A DNA stretch of 64,000 nt from Isoetes taiwanensis (taxonomy: Eukaryota; Streptophyta; Lycopodiopsida; Isoetales; Isoetaceae). Positions 8,392-61,540 of the stretch are shown here, piece after piece. The DNA is taken from the NCBI GenBank assembly GCA_021234155.1, contig JAJEKV010000049.1:2385487-2449486 (forward strand). Direction: 5' to 3'. A program made the translations under genes and the position numbers. The notes below the pieces were generated by a model. The model had not been told where the DNA came from, searched no databases, and saw only the letters and a list, made by a program, of their open reading frames with translations. How positions within the stretch are numbered: position 1 is the first letter of the stretch; each line of letters begins with the position of its first letter.

Positions 8392-9824
8392 TGAACCCCC
8401 CGGGCTTCTTCTACGATGCTCCCATCGTATCAAAAGGCGGAGTTCATCCCCCTGATAGCCAAACTAACAGAGCCATCCAATCCTTGACAATGGATGGGTC
8501 ATTTGCCCCCTCTTCCCCCGGGACCGTCCTAGCACATGACATCAATATATCAATAGAGTCACCTCGAAGGGTGGCTACGTCATAATATACATGTAATAGC
8601 ACATCAATAACATCATCATCACAAGGGGGATCATACCCAATGGCTCGGACTCTAGGGTATGGACTGACGGCTTGGGTTTCCAGAAATCATTGCAGACGGA
8701 ATTCATAGGAATGGATTGGGCGGGCATAGAAACATGGCTGTTGGGTAGTCCACTCCATCTACCCCTCCCATGCACACTTTGCAGAGTAGGTTGAAGAGTC
8801 TTGGCCTGCCGGGTGTGTGCATCTCCCCAGTCCCGATGAGGCAGGAGGAGAGTCTCCTCCCCTCCAGAGGCATGCATGCCCACCACAGGCGGCTAAAGGG
8901 CCACTGCCCATAGTCGACTTGAACCTCATTGAAGGTGACGCATCACCCAAGAGGTGTCGAGCTCATGCCTTGCCCACACGCAGTGGCAAACCATTAAGCC
9001 TAGCCTGCTTAGATCCCTAGTAGGCTTTACACACCAGAGGGATCAGTCAGTGATGGGACAAGTCCCCCTTGTTCCACCAGTCTAGCCCCGCCACCCACAA
9101 CCAGGCGGGCTCTTGTACACGGGCCGCATTAATTGGGAATTAATGAGGTTATCTAGGATGTTTCAGGGTCTCTACCCCCCTTCCCACATACACAGGAGAG
9201 CATAGAATGGAACGTCATCATCACCAAGAATTGGAATACTGAATAAGATCTAATCTATCTTACCTAAACATACATGGTTAGGTTCTTTCGTTACGGCTGG
9301 TGATCTTAGGATCTACAAGACTGATATGACTGATCTAACATGCTATCCTAGCTCATTGCCAGGCTAAGAGTCGGCTTTGCACAACATAATTGCAGGTTAC
9401 CTGATCTTTGGCTTGCTCCAGCTCCTCGAATTGCGTCCATGCCTTCATTCTTGCTGAAGACGGCTGCGCCTGAGGAATCTAATGTGCAAAGGCGGCTCAG
9501 CGGGCGTCTGGCAATGCGGAATGGCAGCTTGCCTTGGCCAAAATAGCTCAGGGAAGCCAAAATGCGAAATTGGAAAAGGTTTAGGGTTTCCCCTTTTGTT
9601 CCTTATACATGAACTTTTAGGGTTAGGTTAGAAGGGACCAAATGGGGTATTGCCACTTGGCAAGGGGGTTTAATTGCATATGTTTAATATACATGTGCAA
9701 CATACGAGGTTGCCCCCTAGGCGCAACTCTTTACGACTCTCAAGTACTTGTCCTGGAGACATGTACGTGTGACGTGACAGTATAATATACGTATTCAAAC
9801 CGTATGTTATGCTGGAACGTCACA
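8392..9824 (-). repeat. 3' LTR of chromovirus (LTR-A)
   Basis: About 1.43 kb aligning along its length with LTR-B (17288-18851) and, in opposite orientation, with LTR-E (43759-45281). On the minus strand it begins TGTGACGTTCCAGC at 9824 and ends near TTCA at 8392. The terminal TGTGACG..CGTCACA inverted repeat is kept at the inner end and mutated at the outer end. It lies downstream of the pol ORFs, so it is the 3' LTR of the element at 8.4-13.6 kb. Confidence 0.8.
9601..9607 (-). promoter_or_regulatory. TATA-like box in LTR-A
   Basis: Minus-strand TATAAGG about 220 bases into the LTR. LTR-E has CTATATAAGG at the matching offset (about 240), which suggests this is the Pol II start region of the family. 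Confidence 0.45.
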
Positions 9825-14027: not shown

Positions 14028-14258
14028 CGTGCCATTTATGAGCTCTCTTGTATGCAAGCAAAAAAATTATTGATTGAACAATTGCTTTAGATACATTTAA
14101 TAAAACATCTTTGGCATTCTTATGTATTTATTTTTGTTGCACTTGATTTTTTTATAATTTATAAGTCATATTGAGTTATTTTTTATTTTGCACAGTTAAC
14201 ATAAAGCCTATCCGCAAGAAAACGAACAAACAACTTACCTAGTGTCAAACACAAAAGA

Positions 14259-15711
14259 ATGTCTCAACAACCGAGTTCGTCTCATCAGCAACCGAGTTCG
14301 TCTCATCAGCAGACGAGAGAAGGGGCTGATGAAACTGGGCAAGGAGCCAACTTCTCATTGCCGTCCTCTTTGAGAACTCCAGATGGATTTGTATTCCCTT
14401 CTTTACCTATATTGTCGGAGGTTAGGGCACAACAACTACAGAGGGCAGAGGAACATGCTAGAACAAATGAAGCGCGTGCAAAAGAGTTGTTGAGGTTGAG
14501 GGCAACGGCAGAAGTGGCCAAGAAAGGTGTCACAATTACAGAGGTGCATGGAGTTGCATGTGAGATGGGCCCAGGTTGTTGCCCGCATGGAGCAGATTAT
14601 AATGATATCGAGGCCAATATAGACGCCAAACAGTTTGACGTCGACTGGCCAAGCAGGAGAACATGTAAATATAAGGCATACGACTGCAAAATCCCTGAAG
14701 TCCGAGTTAAAGCTTTGGAGAGGTGGGTCCAAGTGAAAGGAACGATGATAAAAAACCATGAATTCAGCAAGATGTTTGCCAAGCAAGTGTACTATGAGAT
14801 TGTGAAAGGGGAGCCCGTAAATTATGCTAGTAGAAAATGGAAACAAGGAAGCGGTAGTGGTAGCAGCAAGAGAGTGAAGCTCGCGAACGATTCTGAAAGC
14901 GCTCTTGGTGATGAACCCGTGACTATAACCTATTTGCTTCAAGATGCCATAAAACTTTTAGATGTGGCAGGGGTTGCAGCAGCAGGTGCAGTGACAGAAG
15001 AGGTGAATCTGAAGGCTCAGTTAGAGAATGAAAGAAGTCGAAATCTCACTCTGTCAGAGGAAAACTTGCGCTTAAAAGACCGTGCAAATGCTCACGACAA
15101 GATGGCTGCAGAATTACTAGACACGAAGAATCAACTTGCAGCTTTGGGTAGGGAAAACACGATGTTGAGAGTAGACAATGAGCATATGCGCACCCTGACC
15201 AGAGCCTTAGATTCTGATCCCCTTAGAGTCTCGAAGGAGCAGGGTATTGTATACCTCCCTCCCGAATACCTATATGAGAGCCAGTGGGATGATGTAAAGA
15301 ACGGGGACTTCAGATATTGTCAAGTGTGTGCGGACAATCTGACCCAAGTTGGTTGGTATGCCTTGGGATGTGGACATCGTCTGCATTTGAGGTGTTTGTT
15401 GGATTGGATGATGGGCAGTAGTTTCTGTCCAGCAGAGGATGGATATATTATACCAGAGCGCCAGTATGCAATGCTCAACTTGCAATCACGCATGCCTCCC
15501 TTGCCACCTCTGATTGCTCACAGGAGGGATGGAATGGCTCACGCGTTCCATACCCAACGTGAAATGGACCTTTAGAGGGGGGTAGAAGAACCGCGTGAAG
15601 GTGAAGAGGTACCAGACATTAACCAGTACCTGCCTCCTGCTCCTGGGCCAGCAGGTGATTGGGTGAACCCTGGCGCAAACGTTGATGCAGACGATTACTT
15701 AAACCCATGAG
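14259..15711 (+). CDS. RING-like coiled-coil protein, one in-frame TAG
   Basis: The ATG at 14259 opens 438 residues to a TAG at 15573-15575. The same frame then runs 45 more codons (PREGEEVPDINQYLPPAPGP...) to TGA at 15709-15711. The N-terminus repeats SSSHQQP. A helical Ala/Glu/Arg region follows, then a Cys-containing segment (GPGCCPHGADYND), a basic stretch (GSSKRVKLA), and a coiled coil (about residues 245-320). The final domain reads CQVC..GCGHRLHLRCLLDW..SFCPAE. This fits a RING-H2 finger (C-x2-C, C-x-H-x2-H-x2-C, CP) except that the eighth ligand is missing (CPAE, not CPxC). RING proteins are usually ubiquitin ligases. Whether this one is active is unknown. Its place in a transposon-rich block suggests it may be transposon-borne. 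Confidence 0.6.
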
Positions 15712-25323: not shown

Positions 25324-26034
25324 ACCCCTCTAAGAGTGCGCGAGGAGGGTGTTAGGTTGGGACCTAAGTGGCCTCTGGCGCACTCTTGGAGGTGTTGGTC
25401 TATCTATGCCTAATGGATGCCAAGAACAAGTTCAAAGACGTGAATTCCTACTTATTTTCCTCTTAACTGCAAGTTTCTTTGCTTATTTACTTCATTTGGA
25501 GCAGGTAAGTGGCCGATCAAGGGCCCAGTTGGCTGGACCCCTCTAAGAGTGCGCGAGAAGGGTGTTAGGTCCGGACCTAACTATGCCCTGGCGCACCCTT
25601 AGAGGTGTTGCCCCTTTCTGTTCTAAACTTTTCTAATTGACACATATTAACATGCGTTTCCCGCTAATTTAAGCATTCTAAGTAAGATTCTACCATTTCT
25701 TTTACACTTTGAGTAAGTTTTGAGCAAATTCCGAGGTCACTTTTAGAGGACCCCTCTAAGCATGCGCGAGGAGGGTGTTAGGTCGTGACCTAACTATGCC
25801 CTGGCGCACCCTTAGAGGTGTTGCTCCAAAATGACTTTTACTTAATGTTTTTCTGTGTTTTAACATACAAATTTAGCTAATTAGAGCTTTTTAAATAGGA
25901 TTTCATCTTTTATTTTACCATTTGGGGCTCCTAAGGCCAAGTTCTAGGGTTCATATGGGGTGACCCCTCTAAGAGTGCGCGAGGAGGGTGTTAGGTCATG
26001 ACCTAACTATGCTCTGGCGCACCCTTAGAGGTGT
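25324..26034 (-). repeat. Leader hairpin array, four units
   Basis: Four palindromic units of 62-73 bp lie at 25324-25396, 25537-25608, 25750-25821 and 25973-26034, spaced 213, 213 and 223 bp. Each has outer arms CCTCTAAG.GTGCGC / GCGCAC.CTTAGAGG and an inner palindrome TTAGGTC..GACCTAA. The DNA between units is unrelated. They sit just inside the primer site, in the leader of the RNA. The sense strand carries TGCGCCAGGGCAT, matched by TGCGCCAGAGCAT in the equivalent hairpins of the element at 43.8 kb. Confidence 0.85.
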
Positions 26035-26278
26035 CAGCCAAAAAGTGACTAAAATTTATTAGGCTTTTCCTAGGAAACTTTTCTCCTGTCTATTTCATCT
26101 TAAACATGTTCTCTAATTATCCTAATTCTAGATAATTACTAACTCTACCCCGGGAAAGAAAAAATTTCCCACTACTCGAGGTTCGTGCTTGGGCTTTTAT
26201 CTCCAAGACTGAATGTCTAGATTAGTTAGTTCCTATAGGATTACGGTCAGTGCTCGATCCTGGTCTGCCAAGATCAAA

Positions 26279-26290
26279 GCTCTGATACCA
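26279..26290 (-). other. Primer binding site, initiator-Met tRNA
   Basis: Minus-strand TGGTATCAGAGC one base inside the 5' LTR. It is complementary to the 3' end of plant initiator methionine tRNA, the common primer of plant LTR retrotransposons. Confidence 0.95.
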
Positions 26291-43758: not shown

Positions 43759-45281
43759 TGTGACGTTCCAGCATAGTATACGGTCCCAGGACGTATACTG
43801 TACTGCATCGTCACGCGTACACGCCATCCCAATTGACGTGTACGCCGACGTGTAGCTAAGCAAGTAGCACCCTAGGGGGCAACTTGCAAGTGTGTGCACA
43901 TTTATTCATTTAGCCCACTTAATTAATATAGGCAAGTGGGCCACCCATTTATCCCACATGCTCAAGGGTTGATGGAAGCCCTAGCCCTAACTTATAGTCT
44001 ATATAAGGTATCCTAAACCCTAACTTTCCATTTTTGTCCAAGCCTTCTAGAGCTCCATTTCGCTTGCTCCAAGAGCCAATCTCGACTCCCGAAGTCTGTC
44101 TGGCAGCCTAGGCCATCAGTTCTCCCTTCTGGCTTCATCTTCAAGCAGTTCTGCAGCATGGAAGCGTTCAGAGCAGGAGGAGCAAGCTAGGGATCAGGTA
44201 TTTTGACAATTCAATAGTCTAATTGCCTCTCAGGCATAGAGTAAGTAGGTTTAGCCTATTGAATTGCCCATAGCAGCCATCTAGACCTCTAGATATCAAG
44301 CCATAACTAAAGAACCTAACTTCTGTGATTTAGATTAAATCTTGTTCTTTAGTTCTTCTATGATATGTATGTGATGATGATCTCCGTGGACTCGTTGTAT
44401 TGGGAAGGGGGGTAGAGGCCCTAAAAGCCTAGTAGTTGATGCTCCTAGCTAGTCCTCTTTAATGCACTATTAAATTCGGCCTGTGTACAAGAGCCACACG
44501 TAGTTGTGGGTGGAGGGACCAGACTGGCTTATAAGGAGGTTCATGTCCTGACTCATGATCACGTCCCTCTGGTAGTAAAGCCTATTGGGGACTATAGTGC
44601 ACTAGACCTAATGCTCTGCCACTGCATGCGGGCTTTGCATGGGTTCGACACTCTTGGGCACCTCATGGAGTTCAGTCGAGTACGGGTAGTGGGCCCTCTA
44701 GTCACCTTGAGTCAGCATGTCATCCTCTGGTGGGAGCAATCCCTACCTGCCCCGTCAGAACTGGGGAGATGCAACCCAGTAGTAGCCCTTCTGGCTATGC
44801 ATCCGGCGGGCTACAGTCAAGTCCCAAGACCTTTCAACCTACTCTGCAAAGTATGCACAGGAGGGGCGGATGGAGTGGACTACCCTAAGCCATGTTCTTA
44901 TGCCAGCCAAATCCATTGCCATGAATTCTGTCTGCAATGACTTCTGGAGGCCCAAGCCGTCAGTCCTCTCCCTTGAGTCTGAGCCTTGGGTAGGATGTCC
45001 ATATGTGATGTACTGATCTCTGTCTATGCAGATATATGGTGAGCCACCCTTCGTGGTGGTCATGTGATGTTGATGTTTGTATACTTACATGTGTGTTACG
45101 CTTCCGCAGCTAGGTAGGCCCTGAGGGAGACAGGGTAAAATGACCCCTTTATTCTTCCCACTGGAACTCGTCAAGGTTGCAGTGATACTTAGAGGGCCTT
45201 GTCTCAGCATGGAGCTGGTATGGGGGATGAACTCCTGTTTGTATACGATAAGTGCACCGTATATGAGTAGGGGACGTCACA
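43759..45281 (+). repeat. 5' LTR (LTR-E), 1523 bp
   Basis: Starts TGTGACGTTCCAGC and ends GGGGACGTCACA. Reverse complement relative of LTR-A, -B and -C along its whole length (for example GCCTGTGTACAAGAGCC, CTCTGCAAAGTATGCACAGG and ACGCTTCCGCAGCTAG). It diverges from them more than LTR-B and LTR-C do from each other, so it is a different subfamily or an older copy. Confidence 0.93.
43999..44008 (+). promoter_or_regulatory. TATA box of LTR-E
   Basis: CTATATAAGG about 240 bases into the LTR, a good match to plant TATA boxes. RNA would start about 30 bases downstream. Confidence 0.6.
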
Positions 45282-45282
45282 G

Positions 45283-45294
45283 TGGTATCAGAGC
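45283..45294 (+). other. Primer binding site, initiator-Met tRNA
   Basis: TGGTATCAGAGC one base after the 5' LTR, identical to the site of the element at 17.3-27.4 kb. Confidence 0.95.
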
Positions 45295-45487
45295 AATGTT
45301 CTTGGAGACCAAGAGCAAAGCACTGGCCATGCTCCCAGTAGTACTAACTTAGTAGAATTCTCAAACCTCGAAAAAGTGGGAAATTTTTTTCTCATTTTTT
45401 GTAGTTTATGCTAAGCTAGTAACAGTTAGAAGAATTGAAAACCAAATTAAAAAGTTGAACTAAATCTTGATCTAAGTATAGAAATTG

Positions 45488-45760
45488 CTCATGGTATGCG
45501 CCAGAGCATCAACCTAAATTTTAGGTTGAGCCCAGGCGCACACCATGAGTAACTGGCCATAATCACCTTCAAACTGAAGAATTTAAACAAGCTAATATGT
45601 TAGATCAAATTTTAAGGTAAGGTTTAGCTAGATCTGCTTACCCCACCCCTAGGAATATGTCTAGAAGTTGTATGTTTTAGTCAAAAATGCAAAATTACTC
45701 ATAGTACGCGCCAAAGCCTCGACCAAAAATTTAGATCAGAGCTCTAGCGCACACCATGAG
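45488..45760 (+). repeat. Leader hairpins 1 and 2
   Basis: Hairpin 1 (45488-45549): outer arms CTCATGGTATGCGCC / GGCGCACACCATGAG, inner palindrome ACCTAAATTTTAGGT. Hairpin 2 (45698-45760): the same design with some mismatches (CATAGTACGCGCC / AGCGCACACCATG). Spacing is 210 bp, as in the array at 25.3-26.0 kb. Confidence 0.85.
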
Positions 45761-45865
45761 TAAAAATTGCTTAGAAAACTCTGAAGTAAGTACATGTTTT
45801 AAGTTAATATGTGATTTGAATCATGAAAATGAGCAACTTAGAATTTAACCTAAAATTTGCCAAAC

Positions 45866-45874
45866 TATAAATAG
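45866..45874 (+). promoter_or_regulatory. TATA box before H3-like gene
   Basis: TATAAATAG, a near-consensus plant TATA box, 110 bases upstream of the ATG at 45976. If used, it would give a short leader of about 80 nt and make the gene independent of the LTR promoter. Confidence 0.5.
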
Positions 45875-45975
45875 ACCCAAACCCCTCTCATTTGTAGACT
45901 TTCTGTCTAGAAGTTAGCTCCCGCATTTCGAGGTGATTTTTGGGCGCCAGAGCTCTGATTGACGTGAAGTAAAGC

Positions 45976-47332
45976 ATGGCCTGCACGAAACAACCTAGCT
46001 CGGAAGTATCGACCAGGCGAACAACCTAGCGCCCAAGATAAGAGGCGCATACAGCAGCTACTTCGAGAGCAGCTTCTCGGAAGTAGCTCGGAAGTATCGA
46101 CATGCTCGGAAGTATCGACCAGGCGAACAACCTAGCGCCCAAGATAAGAGGCGCATACAGCAGCTACTTCGAGAGCAGCTTCTCGCTCGAGGAGACGAAC
46201 TTCCATCAGCTGAGGAGAGTATTTCAGAGGAGCTACAGGAGGAGGGATCCGAGCAAGGATCACTAGAAGACCTGGCTGACCTCATCAACCAGGACTTAGA
46301 TGAAGCAGAGGTGGAATCAGAGGGCTCAACAGATGAGGAAACTCAAGAAGTATTCAAGGAAATTGAAGAGGAGATATGATAGCAAGAGAGGGCGGAACGA
46401 GAGCAGGCTGTCAATGCACCAGAAGAGCAGAAGGAGCCCACTCCCGAGCTGACCTTAGAAGAAGAGATCGAGGCCTGGATTCAAATGCAGGAGGCGAAGG
46501 CACAATGCCGCAAAAAGAGAAAGGCCGAGAAGAAAAGGAAACGAGAAGAAAAGGAGACAGAAGCAAAGAAGAAGCTCAAGGGCAAAGGCAAGGAGGAGTC
46601 TAAGAGGAAGATTAAGAAGACACCCATGGTCAAGCTCGTCATCAACGAATGGCTGCCCGACCAGCCACCATCCTCTGATGACGAAGATGATGAAGATTAC
46701 AATCCTCATCAAGAAGTGGGGAGCTCCTCCAAACCCGCATACGAGGATTGGACAGACCAGGATCGGCATATTCAAGCACCCCCACCTTACCCCACATGGG
46801 AGAAGGAGAAGGATCCCAAGAAGCCGACCCGACCTGCCCGAGAGTCTTATGTGGTAGACCATCTCAGGGTCTATCAGAAGAAGTTGAAGGCCTACAAGGA
46901 ATATATGAAGAAGTGGGAGGCCTACAACTCCTACTACCAGGCCAATAAGGTAACTTATGTCGAAGGAGGACGGCCCTCAAAGAAAAAGACCCTCTAGCCA
47001 CCTCCAGAGAAACCCATTCCCCTAAAGAAGCCAATAGCCAGGAAAGCCGGATCGAAACTGTCACAAGCGATTCGAGAGATCCGACATTTTCAGAGAAACT
47101 ATGGCCTTCTCATCCCCCGTGCACCATTCGCCAGGTCGTGAAGGAGGTCGTACAAGAGTTCGACACGAGCATGAAGGTCACAGGCGAGATGCTACTAGCC
47201 TTGCAGGAGGCAGCAGAGCAGAAGCTGGTGCAACATTTTGAAGACTGGACAGCGTGCACTTTGCATGCCAAGAGAGTGACCCTAATGACCAAGGATATGC
47301 ACTTGGCAAGTTCTATTAAAGGAGAACATTAA
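45976..47332 (+). pseudogene. Histone H3-fold fusion protein, broken
   Basis: The ATG at 45976 reads MACTKQ, one residue from the H3 tail start MARTKQ. Then come an acidic region (46190-46375, ending in TGATAG), a Lys-rich region with likely nuclear signals (KKRKAEKKRKREE, KGKEESKRKIKK), a segment with DDEDDEDYNP and YVVDHLRVYQKKLKAYKEYM, a TAG at 46995, and the H3 part: LKKPIARKAGSKL, helix AIREIRHFQRNYGLLIP, a one-base frameshift at 47135, VVKEVVQEF, ALQEAAEQKLVQHFED, HAKRVTLMTKDMHLA, IKGEH and stop. Nearly all of the H3 fold is present. HFQ, LLIP and TLM resemble plant centromeric H3, while loop 1 has canonical H3 length. H3 pairs with H4 in nucleosomes, so the intact protein may have entered chromatin (inference). 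A 106-bp tandem duplication (45998-46103/46104-46186) also disrupts the frame. Confidence 0.85.
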
Positions 47333-47355
47333 TTTTGTAAATAATAGATTTTGTA

Positions 47356-47361
47356 AATAAA
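47356..47361 (+). terminator. Poly(A) signal after H3-like gene
   Basis: AATAAA 24 bases after the stop codon, within the T/A-rich 3' flank. With the TATA box it gives the inserted segment the look of a self-contained gene. Confidence 0.45.
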
Positions 47362-47477
47362 AAGTTGTTTTTGGGTAAATTATAAGTGCATAAATGTTGT
47401 TAATTAGATTGATTTAGCAATAATTACATTTTGTTTTAGTTAAATTGGACATCATATGGCCAAAAAGTGAGAAGTTA

Positions 47478-47722
47478 CTCACGGTATGCGCCAGAGCATC
47501 GACCTAAAATTTAGGTCAGGCCCCAGGCGCACACCGTGAGTATTTCACATCAAAAGTGGTCCTAAACATCTCCAAACCGGCCAAGTAAGGGGTCAATCTT
47601 GCATATCTCGATGACATCATCATGTTTTGACCCTTAGTTCATCCTGTTTAGATAAGTTTTGACCAAATAGGGCCAAATTACTCATGGTATGCGCCAGGAC
47701 CTCAACCTAAATTTTAGGTCAG
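47478..47722 (+). repeat. Leader hairpins 3 and 4 (4 truncated)
   Basis: Hairpin 3 (47478-47540): arms CTCACGGTATGCGCC / GGCGCACACCGTGAG, inner GACCTAAAATTTAGGTC. Hairpin 4 starts at 47692 with CTCATGGTATGCGCC and its inner palindrome, but the right arm is missing. Spacing is 214 bp. Compared with hairpin 1, both arms of hairpin 3 changed together (CATGGT/ACCATG to CACGGT/ACCGTG). Confidence 0.85.
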
Positions 47723-48095
47723 CACATGTTGAAGGATGATTTGAGAAATGTATGGACGGTTAGGCACATGATGTTTGTTTTCCTCTCCGAATTAAGTTTT
47801 TAGCCCAGAAGTTAGAAACATATTATTTGCAGAAGCCTGTCAGATCTAAAGCAAATATTATTTTTGACATTCCCAAAAACAAGGTCCACTAATAACCACA
47901 AACCCAAAATTGCATATGAAGCATTATTTTCATTTAGATGCTCACATGCTTAAATCCACTATCTTTATTAGTTTCTGAACTTATACTTAGCAAAAAGCCC
48001 AGCAATGCTGGGCACTTTTTCTAGTATACTTATAAGAGATTTAAAAGCCAACTTGTGGTGCATGCCTTCACATCTTATAGTTATAAGAGATTTAA
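47723..48095. other. Element breakpoint, no gene
   Basis: Sequence between the truncated LTR element and a LINE tail. The 18-base phrase TTATAAGAGATTTAAAAG occurs twice (about 48029 and 48080), 51-52 bases apart. Confidence 0.5.
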
Positions 48096-60437: not shown

Positions 60438-61540
60438 ATGGCTCCAAAACAGAAATTTCCAGCAGAACAAGAACCACTAGAAGATCAGAAAGCATCAGAA
60501 CACTGCAGAGATAGGCCTCTCCCCTCAAGTTTTTCAACTGGATTACTCCAGAGCCTGCCTTATCAGTTTGAGTTGAATGTTCCTATTCCATTGCCTACTT
60601 TTGGCTCCAGCATGAGTGCTAATACTTTTTTGAAAACTTTTGAAGATTACTACAGGGATTATAGTTTTAAAAAGGGGTGTAAGTTTTCACAGTTTGAGAA
60701 GTGCTTTAAGGAGGAGAGTGAAGCTGGTGTTTGGCTGACCTATGAGAAACTTATGGGAACCACTTCCTGGGATGACCTTATTCTTATTCTTATTCTTATT
60801 CTTATTCTTATTCTTATTCTTATTCTTATTCTTATTCTTATTCTTATTCTTATTCTTATTCTTATTCTTATTCTTATTCTTATTCTTATTCTTATTCTTA
60901 TTCTTATTCTTATTCTTGTCACCAAATTTTTAGACAGGTTTGGAAAACTTGCTGCTCCCAAGGATCTTGTTAATGAATAGCAAAATTTCTCTATTTATGC
61001 AGGTGAAAGTGTTAGTCAATACAAGGAGAGGTTCAGCACCTTCATGAATAGATGCCAGAAATGCCAAGTCACCATCCCGACGCTCTTTTTAGTGTCCTCT
61101 TTTATTAAAGGCCTATCTTCTAGACCAGAAGTTCAAAGAAAACTTATCAAGATTCAAGCTGCTGAAGGTTTTGATTCTATCTACAAGGTCTTTGCCAAAA
61201 CAACTGAGTTGACTAAGATGCTTTCTATCTTACCAGAAAAACACAATGGCTTTCACCATGATCCCTTCTACCCTGATGCTATTGATGGTCCTTATGAACC
61301 TCACCATTCTGTTCCCATCTATGTTGTGCATAAAGATAAGAAAAAGGCCAAAGATGAAGAAGCTGACGATCAAATTTTAGAAGTTAAAGCAGAGTTGACA
61401 AAGGTAACTGAAGCTCTAGCAGAAGTGACCAAACAACTTGTGGAGCTCAAAAGAAGCAGGGCAGGTAAAACCTATCCTGAATGTATCCATTGCAACTTCA
61501 TATCCAGCTTACATCTGCTATTGGCAAGTGTGCCCTAAAT
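60438..61540 (+). pseudogene. Ty3 gag with microsatellite insertion
   Basis: The ATG at 60438 opens MAPKQKFPAEQEPLEDQKAS, followed by a capsid-like region (NTFLKTFEDYYRDY, FEKCFKEESEAGVWLTYEKL). At 60778 the frame enters a TTATTC repeat that encodes alternating Ile and Leu for about 47 codons, then resumes TKFLDRFGKLAAPKDLVNE. A TAG at 60978-60980 follows, and the same frame continues with NFSIYAGESVSQYKERFSTF and SSFIKGLSSRPEVQRKLIKI, typical of the retrotransposon gag capsid (SV..Y..RF). It ends with a Lys/Glu-rich part and ECIHC, perhaps a broken zinc knuckle. Gag would form the virus-like particle. The repeat and the stop make this copy defective. Confidence 0.75.
60778..60917. repeat. 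Hexanucleotide microsatellite (TTATTC)n
   Basis: About 23 uninterrupted copies of TTATTC inside the gag frame. Because the unit is six bases, it keeps the reading frame on both strands, giving Ile-Leu on the plus and Arg-Ile on the minus strand. Confidence 0.98.

Follow-up and report, generated by a model that had tools for sequence, protein, structure and literature searches.

The stretch of DNA analyzed here, 64,000 nucleotides of the Isoetes taiwanensis genome, is referred to as the window. Its segment 45866-47361 was translated in all forward frames, and the features of the locus are listed in Table 1. A single gene, denoted ORF1, spans positions 45976-47332 and consists of a start reading MACTKQ, an acidic and lysine-rich stretch of approximately 300 aa, and a histone H3 fold. 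The frame reading and the Pfam comparison located these three elements, as well as a TATA box and an AATAAA, where an earlier note, made from the sequence alone, had placed them. The frame 46949-47329 matches the Pfam Histone family with an E-value of 2e-14 (54.3 bits, with a cut-off of 26.4) and nucleosomal histone H3 in the PDB with an E-value of 5.5e-15; a chance resemblance to H3 is ruled out by the Pfam match together with the 109 matches in the genome described below. This copy of ORF1 is a dead, decayed gene: stops interrupt it at 46377-46382 and 46995-46997, its frame shifts near 47135, and 82 bp close to its start are duplicated. The homology to its family ends at 47723, and therefore ORF2 and the gag-pol genes, which follow ORF1 in related copies, are missing behind it.

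Table 1. Features of the ORF1 locus (coordinates of the window).
Feature	Position	Strand	Basis or remark
5' LTR (TGTGACGTTCCA ... GTCACA)	43759..45281	+	LTR start motif at 43759 and LTR end/primer-site junction; related LTRs elsewhere in the window
Primer-binding site TGGTATCAGAGC	45283..45294	+	at most one mismatch in 11 of 12 W copies
Leader hairpin 1	45484..45552	+	-42 kcal/mol, z -9.7; family repeat D2
Leader hairpin 2	45694..45764	+	-19.2 kcal/mol, z -5.4
TATAAATA, putative internal promoter of ORF1	45866..45873	+	110 bp upstream of the ATG at 45976
ORF1 start, MACTKQ (MARTKQTARK in relatives)	45976..45993	+	frame reading and comparison with relatives
82-bp direct duplication damaging the window copy	45998..46185 (45998-46079 and 46104-46185)	+	repeat comparison
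Acidic and Lys-rich ORF1 insert, single frame broken by TGA TAG at 46377-46382	46104..46994	+	same stretch aligned in relatives
H3 histone fold, alpha-N to alpha-3; frame shift near 47135; stop 47330-47332	47064..47329	+	Pfam Histone, PDB histone H3
AATAAA downstream of ORF1	47356..47361	+	AATAAA 1.2-1.5 kb past the ATG in 12 of 12 W copies
Hairpin 3, past ORF1	47474..47545	+	-38.2 kcal/mol, z -8.6
Hairpin 4, cut	47673..47723	+	repeat comparison; family homology stops at 47723

With the window ORF1 as the query, a search of the genome (1,658,258,908 bases in 1110 contigs) yielded at least 109 matches, the window's own included (102 were scored of 24373 first-look candidates), so that the H3-like part is not confined to this locus, confinement being what the earlier note had named as fatal to its idea. 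These copies, denoted the W branch, are spread over many contigs, and 12 of them, chosen by similarity to the window ORF1, were excised with their flanks (L029-L040, L029 being the window copy). The hairpin repeat is present in four copies around the window ORF1, two upstream and two downstream, and folding of three of them gave structures of much higher stability than shuffled sequence (Table 1). Hairpins lie on both sides of ORF1 in all 12 excised copies, the window copy included, and the LTR end with the primer-binding site, which we take to be of the initiator-methionine tRNA type, is present in 11 of the 12, approximately 660-730 bp upstream of the ORF1 start; the LTR and the hairpins thus accompany the gene and are not unlinked to it. 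Many of the matched W copies contain stops, and 3 of the 9 that could be read in one frame are stop-free; the relatives that the earlier note had proposed to look for, with an H3-like gene at the same place and intact frames, accordingly exist.

In these relatives, ORF1 consists of an H3 tail, MARTKQTARK, followed by YRPG (compare residues 41-44 of H3), an insert of about 300 aa and the H3 fold. The tail is exact in 6 of the 12 copies and differs by one or two residues in 5 (one of the changes being a stop); the remaining copy is that of the window, which reads MACTKQ before its frame shifts, and the derivation of MACTKQ from MARTKQ, previously a guess, agrees with this distribution. No close relatives of the W ORF1 as a fusion were found in the protein collection, where the matches cover about one-fifth of the long query, namely the fold.

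The sequence TATAAATA is located 109-111 bp upstream of the ATG in 11 of the 12 W copies, and the twelfth (L032) has TATAAGTA instead; as a cassette with up to two mismatches, the TATA element lies approximately 110-112 bp 5' of ORF1 in all 12. A second, similar cassette precedes ORF2 in 10 of 11 copies (the truncated window copy excluded), approximately 1785-1888 bp past the ORF1 start in L030-L040. By this layout, the two accessory genes of W look as if each had its own promoter. Because the leader as a whole is 78-97% alike among the W copies (in 20-bp steps), the cassette is a trait of anatomy and no proof of a promoter.

A second set of H3-fold genes was identified in two scans of the genome. 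The scan with the Pfam Histone family (150 scored of 8705 first-look candidates) returned 15 full-length canonical H3 sequences and 135 that are not, and a scan with a CENH3 query was scored for 150 of 6975 candidates. Together, and with the 15 canonical H3 rows set aside, the two scans point to at least 243 non-canonical H3-fold places distributed over 100 contigs (27 are common to both scans); this number may include fragments or host H3-like genes, and 20 of the places were inspected with their flanks. These 20 copies (L009-L028), picked by histone score and by a frame of at least 424 aa, make up the ABC branch. In all of them a near-canonical H3 fold ends the long frame (in L014 the frame continues beyond the usual stop, and in L017 the start is broken). 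In this ORF1, a linker joins an N-domain of about 230 aa to the fold, and the three types of this gene, A, B and C, are mutually alike over most of their length, with 41-44% identity. The exact H3 tail is absent: an ARKS, TARK, AARK or RTKQ motif occurs in 1 of the 20 copies, as ARKS. For the N-domain, no convincing relatives were found in Pfam (best E 0.042, with 10 members), in PDB sequences (best E 1.8, an antibody) or in viral contigs (50 pattern matches, zero confirmed). The LTR start motif is present in 17 and the primer site in 15 of the 20 copies, and TATAAA occurs within 200 bp upstream of ORF1 in none of them (0/20). At least two branches of elements therefore carry an H3 ORF1, W with a divergent fold and an insert of about 300 aa, and ABC with a 230-aa N-domain. 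Eight canonical H3 genes of the host (L001-L008) are open over all 136 codons and have Y41 and either SSAVL or STAVL at positions 86-90.

Chromoviruses, a group of Ty3/gypsy elements that includes the centromeric CRM elements, possess LTRs, gag, protease, reverse transcriptase (RT), RNase H and integrase, with a chromodomain after the integrase. The elements described here show this organization, with the difference that ORF1 with H3 and ORF2 are added upstream of gag: the order is leader, ORF1, ORF2, gag, protease, RT, RNase H and integrase with chromodomain. In the W branch, Pfam identifies gag (PF03732), RT, RNase H, H2C2 and rve in L041, and L043 has a protease-like stretch; in type A, gag, protease and the start of RT were detected in L021, and RT, RNase H and integrase in L042; in type C (L027), the one frame scanned contains gag, protease and integrase and no RT. 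The chromodomain (PF00385) that ends the integrase matches with E 8.3e-10 in W (L041) and 2.8e-9 in A (L042), so that the gag-protease-RT-RNase H-integrase series in Ty3 order with an integrase chromodomain is present in both. A complete A element (L022 together with L042) measures 13.2 kb and has two LTRs (K2P 0.057), the polypurine tract AAGGAGGGGAGAA and a target duplication of 5 bp whose two copies differ at one position (ACTGC/ACCGC); neither ORF2 nor gag is open over its full length in L022. L009 has a second LTR pair (K2P 0.041). An LTR pair was found in no W element, the 3' LTR being absent in L041 and L043 and the window copy comprising the 5' part only, and the full set of LTR pair, primer site, polypurine tract and target duplication is accordingly documented in one A element, with the 5' side only in W. 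A LINE-like frame lies downstream of the L041 integrase. There is very little doubt that the H3 gene belongs, as an accessory gene situated between the leader and ORF2-gag-pol, to an LTR retrotransposon of the chromovirus type of Ty3/gypsy.

The alternative origin considered in the earlier note, a fusion of gag to H3, was not borne out, given that gag (PF03732) and pol are separate downstream genes, and a replacement of the nucleocapsid by H3 is ruled out by the presence of a zinc knuckle in this separate gag (a weak Pfam match in L021, and CCHC by eye in L026 and L043). What stood of that proposal is the H3 gene itself in the family, with some 300 residues between its tail and its fold. The same zinc knuckle, which leaves H3 no part as a substitute for the nucleocapsid, bears on the idea that ORF1, with host H4 and possibly H2A and H2B, coats the RNA or cDNA of the element in particles or chromatinizes the cDNA before integration. 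Such packaging appears distinctly improbable even though ORF1 lies beside gag-pol in both branches and medusavirus histones are present in virions, according to a passage in a review of viral histones (PMC9145170); furthermore, no H4 is named among the Pfam hits of the element ORFs that were scanned.

ORF2, of approximately 470-490 aa where the frame is full, is present in the W, A, B and C copies that were read (for example, L041:286-1755 and L021:3206-4615 on the minus strand). It has no Pfam hit in the four sequences scanned and no relative among PDB sequences; the W protein matches that of B with E 3e-9 and 22% identity, and the likeness of W to A, B and C is weak throughout (20-24%). The genes downstream are far more alike among the ABC types. 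With the A copy L021 as the reference, the identity of gag amounts to 97.3% for C (L027), to 96.7% for L026 of type B and, in a 100-aa comparison, to 96.0% for L025, and that of protease to 98.4% for C (L027) and to 93.7-95.2% for the B copies L023, L025 and L026; the integrase of C (L027) is 97.9% identical over 96 aa to that of the A copy L042. Other comparisons of B with A give lower values: 79.5-92.3% for RT, 57.5-71.0% for gag in L020, L023 and L024, and 49.0% for protease in L024. Among these types, the N-domains of ORF1 have no more than 31-35% identity. Elements of types A, B and C (L021, L025, L026 and L027) can be near-identical in gag and protease and differ strongly in ORF1 and ORF2; the histories of ORF1 and pol therefore differ, which suggests that the ORF1-ORF2 block has been exchanged between elements. 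Between W and A, the identity is 59% in gag, 76-82% in RT (L041), 79-81% in integrase and 48-49% in the H3 fold.

The ratio of nonsynonymous to synonymous substitutions was pooled over copies that were not a random sample (the W copies having been chosen by similarity to the window, and the ABC copies for their histone score and a frame length of 424 aa or more), with stop codons skipped, L029, L036 and L037 outside the W set, and L017 and the single C copy outside the A and B sets. For the fold, dN/dS is 0.073 in W (9 copies), 0.041 in A (13 copies) and 0.022 in B (5 copies), the low values in ABC being partly a product of the way in which those copies were picked; the least biased value is that of W, whose copies were chosen by whole-gene similarity. 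The corresponding values are 0.223 for the W insert, 0.217 and 0.130 for the linkers of A and B, 0.103 and 0.125 for their N-domains, 0.117 and 0.170 for their H3-tail stretches, and 0.108 for the W tail with YRPG; over the whole gene, 26 of the 78 A pairs are either saturated or too close. The histone fold is the part most guarded by selection in each type. A lone captured H3 pseudogene is ruled out by this purifying selection and by the same location of the gene in the elements examined. The broken state of the window copy and the stops in many others would fit a functionless host H3 pseudogene or fragment carried along as a passenger, yet the hundreds of places, the constant position in the elements examined, the many frames of 400-490 aa and the fold dN/dS of 0.02-0.07 make this extremely improbable.

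In the W copy L038, the Pfam Histone family is matched with E 1.3e-24, and the best 60 PDB hits shown for the W fold are histone H3 entries. This fold aligns without gaps to nucleosomal H3 over 89 residues, comprising alpha-N and the three-helix fold with canonical loops; given the ungapped alignment, loop 1 has the canonical length, as the earlier note had it. The identity to host H3 is 86% in ABC (1526 of 1780 cells, 20 copies) and 54% in W (385 of 708 cells, 8 copies, L040 being left out), so that W does not show the near-identity expected of a host H3 pseudogene. With the residues of the H3-H3' bundle and of DNA contact assigned as we take them to be, ABC retains 180 of 180 bundle cells and 284 of 300 DNA-contact cells, and W retains 54 of 72 and 70 of 120, respectively. 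In all eight W copies compared, C110, H113, D123, I130, R116, V117, R49 and R69 are kept (R83 in seven), and R63, R72, F84 and R129 are changed. Residues 87-90, presumably the stretch that is read by H3 chaperones, are changed in both branches, from SAVL or TAVL in the host to mostly FAIL or HAIL in ABC and mostly EMLL in W.

A tree built from 97 columns and 55 rows unites ABC in a single clade (99/92) with host H3 close to it, the joining forks being weak (82/67 and 80/70); W forms a single clade as well (100/100), its branch being long and its position next to plant CENH3 weakly supported (92/75, not starred). A 387-aa metagenome protein (P0089) with a long Q/S-rich N-terminal part and an H3 fold falls between ABC and host H3 (weak, 80/70). 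The closeness of the ABC fold to host H3 indicates that this branch probably arose by capture of a host H3 gene, and we infer the same origin for W. The presence of ORF2 at the same place in both branches favors one old capture, and the CENH3-like residues of W favor two. Slow evolution of H3 was dropped as proof of two captures given that A, B and C share gag and protease with very different ORF1. Plant CENH3 has a longer loop 1 than canonical H3, and this trait is missing from the W fold. Two separate captures, of a canonical H3 by ABC and of a centromeric H3 by W, the W product then directing elements to centromeres, would account for the RHFQ, LLIP and TLM residues and for the position of W in the tree; nevertheless, with the canonical loop and ungapped fit to H3, a single W+ABC clade that is not rejected (p-AU 0.29), W copies on many contigs and no host CENH3 identified among the 150 scored places (of 6975 candidates obtained with the CENH3 query), we consider this scenario quite unlikely.

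Compared with canonical and centromeric H3, the proteins described here have the H3 fold in common, and W also shares ARTKQTARK; some centromeric H3s are long-tailed, as noted in part of the review (PMC9145170). They differ in being encoded by a mobile element and in the insert placed after YRPG and before alpha-N. The passages of the same review on single viral histones (the bracovirus CvBV-H4, six viral H3s and a pandoravirus H2B; PMC9145170) describe lone core histones derived from the host, often with an extended tail, as is the case here. The viral H3 folds are 73-87% identical to host H3 (PMC9145170), a range that includes ABC and excludes W. Single viral histones close to those of the host are taken to act within host nucleosomes, and CvBV-H4 was recovered in host nucleosomes, where it acts through its extended tail (PMC9145170). 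In our case, the carrier is an LTR retrotransposon with many chromosomal copies, and the insert or N-terminal part is 230-350 aa long.

Given the residues kept in the fold and the precedent of the single viral histones, we infer that ORF1 could pair with host H4 and enter nucleosomes. The overall explanation that we prefer, with a probability of roughly 55%, is a retrotransposon H3 accessory gene that acts as a nucleosomal H3 variant. Under this scenario, the fold would pair with host H4, the ORF1 protein would be built into nucleosomes, and the extra part, in W along with a free H3 tail, would protrude from the chromatin, where it might keep silencing factors off the chromatin of the element or, alternatively, mark and tether sites for the element integrase. 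The chances that the fold joins H4 in nucleosomes and that the chromatin of the element is thereby shielded, or integrase sites marked or tethered, seem about even to us, judging by the retained residues and by analogy. For the role of the extra part, we favor a silencing block or an integration tether. The more detailed picture, a selfish subunit of the nucleosome that pairs with H4, alters host chromatin through its extension for shielding or integration, is swapped between elements together with ORF2 and in W is transcribed from an internal promoter, is offered tentatively. The low identity of the W fold to host H3 (385 of 708 cells), with R63, R72, F84 and R129 changed, counts against the nucleosomal reading.

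The changed DNA-contact residues of W would also fit a decoy, that is a soluble ORF1 protein that titrates host H4, histone chaperones or the readers and writers of the H3 tail (through ARTKQTARK in W) and so weakens silencing while staying outside nucleosomes. This agrees with the tail dN/dS of 0.108 and with residues 1-9 of H3 being exact in 6 of the 12 W copies, and a host-poison role has been suggested for nudivirus Orf1 in part of the viral-histone review (PMC9145170). Still, ABC is without the tail and yet has preserved almost every residue of DNA contact and of the bundle, features for which a pure decoy would have no use, and we regard the decoy as unlikely.

Because ABC has no H3 tail, a mechanism based on the tail cannot be common to both branches. 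The notion of an H3 that cannot be silenced, all copies being without ARKS, was dropped given that the alignment of this stretch is ambiguous, 1 of the 20 ABC copies has ARKS and W has ARK. The closest PDB match of the integrase chromodomain is chromodomain 2 of CHD1, and compared with HP1 it presumably lacks two of the three aromatic residues of the methyl-lysine cage. Reading of the H3K9 of the element itself by this chromodomain is weakened by both the CHD1 likeness and the presumed cage positions, and we do not favor it.

The elements belong with the mobile and viral genomes that bear captured single histones, and the kind of carrier is new. Nudivirus HzNV-1 Orf1, as described in part of the review (PMC9145170), is likewise a long protein with C-terminal histone folds and an N-terminal part without known relatives; unlike ORF1, it contains an H4-H3 doublet with 30-40% identity and belongs to a DNA virus. 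A Culex Helentron, according to a passage of its description (PMC4067079), also has histone sequence within a mobile element, with H4 and H1 fragments in eight copies; in contrast to the elements described here, these are broken gene fragments in a rolling-circle DNA transposon. No report of a core histone encoded by a retrotransposon was found among the titles and abstract starts listed in searches of the open-license literature. The word "retrotransposon" has 0 occurrences in the main text of the viral-histone review (PMC9145170), and by word search "histone" is absent from the main texts on Isoetes taiwanensis (PMC8566536) and I. sinensis (PMC10541799). A selected H3 accessory gene in chromoviral LTR retrotransposons is real and well supported, and it appears to be undescribed. 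A passage of the Isoetes taiwanensis paper states that repeats resembling plant proteins were removed from the repeat library (PMC8566536), and this purge could have hidden H3-bearing elements from view. More generally, H3-bearing repeats resemble host histone genes and may be lost from repeat libraries or taken for genes in annotation, which would be a practical trap.

The silencing of retrotransposons is written on histone H3, and an H3 made by the element itself could change the nucleosome rather than hide from it, so that escape from silencing inside the nucleosome becomes testable. If the nucleosomal reading is correct, "pickpocketed" histones extend from DNA viruses to retroelements, and these genes are a natural test of how far H3 can lengthen and still work.

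By tblastn, no further ORF1 of the family was found in the window. The 3' half of a relative is located at 13572-10540 on the minus strand, with an LTR start motif at 9824, and in pol it is most similar to W (80-89% in the larger pieces, with a weaker chromodomain part at 52%). Another relative, at 25330-26290 on the minus strand, has an LTR, a primer site and four leader hairpins of different sequence, and no H3 was found behind them. The window also contains a 456-aa open frame with a RING-type zinc finger (14205-15575, plus strand) and, at 60777-60917, a long run of CTTATT repeats in an open frame that reads as an (LI)n stretch.
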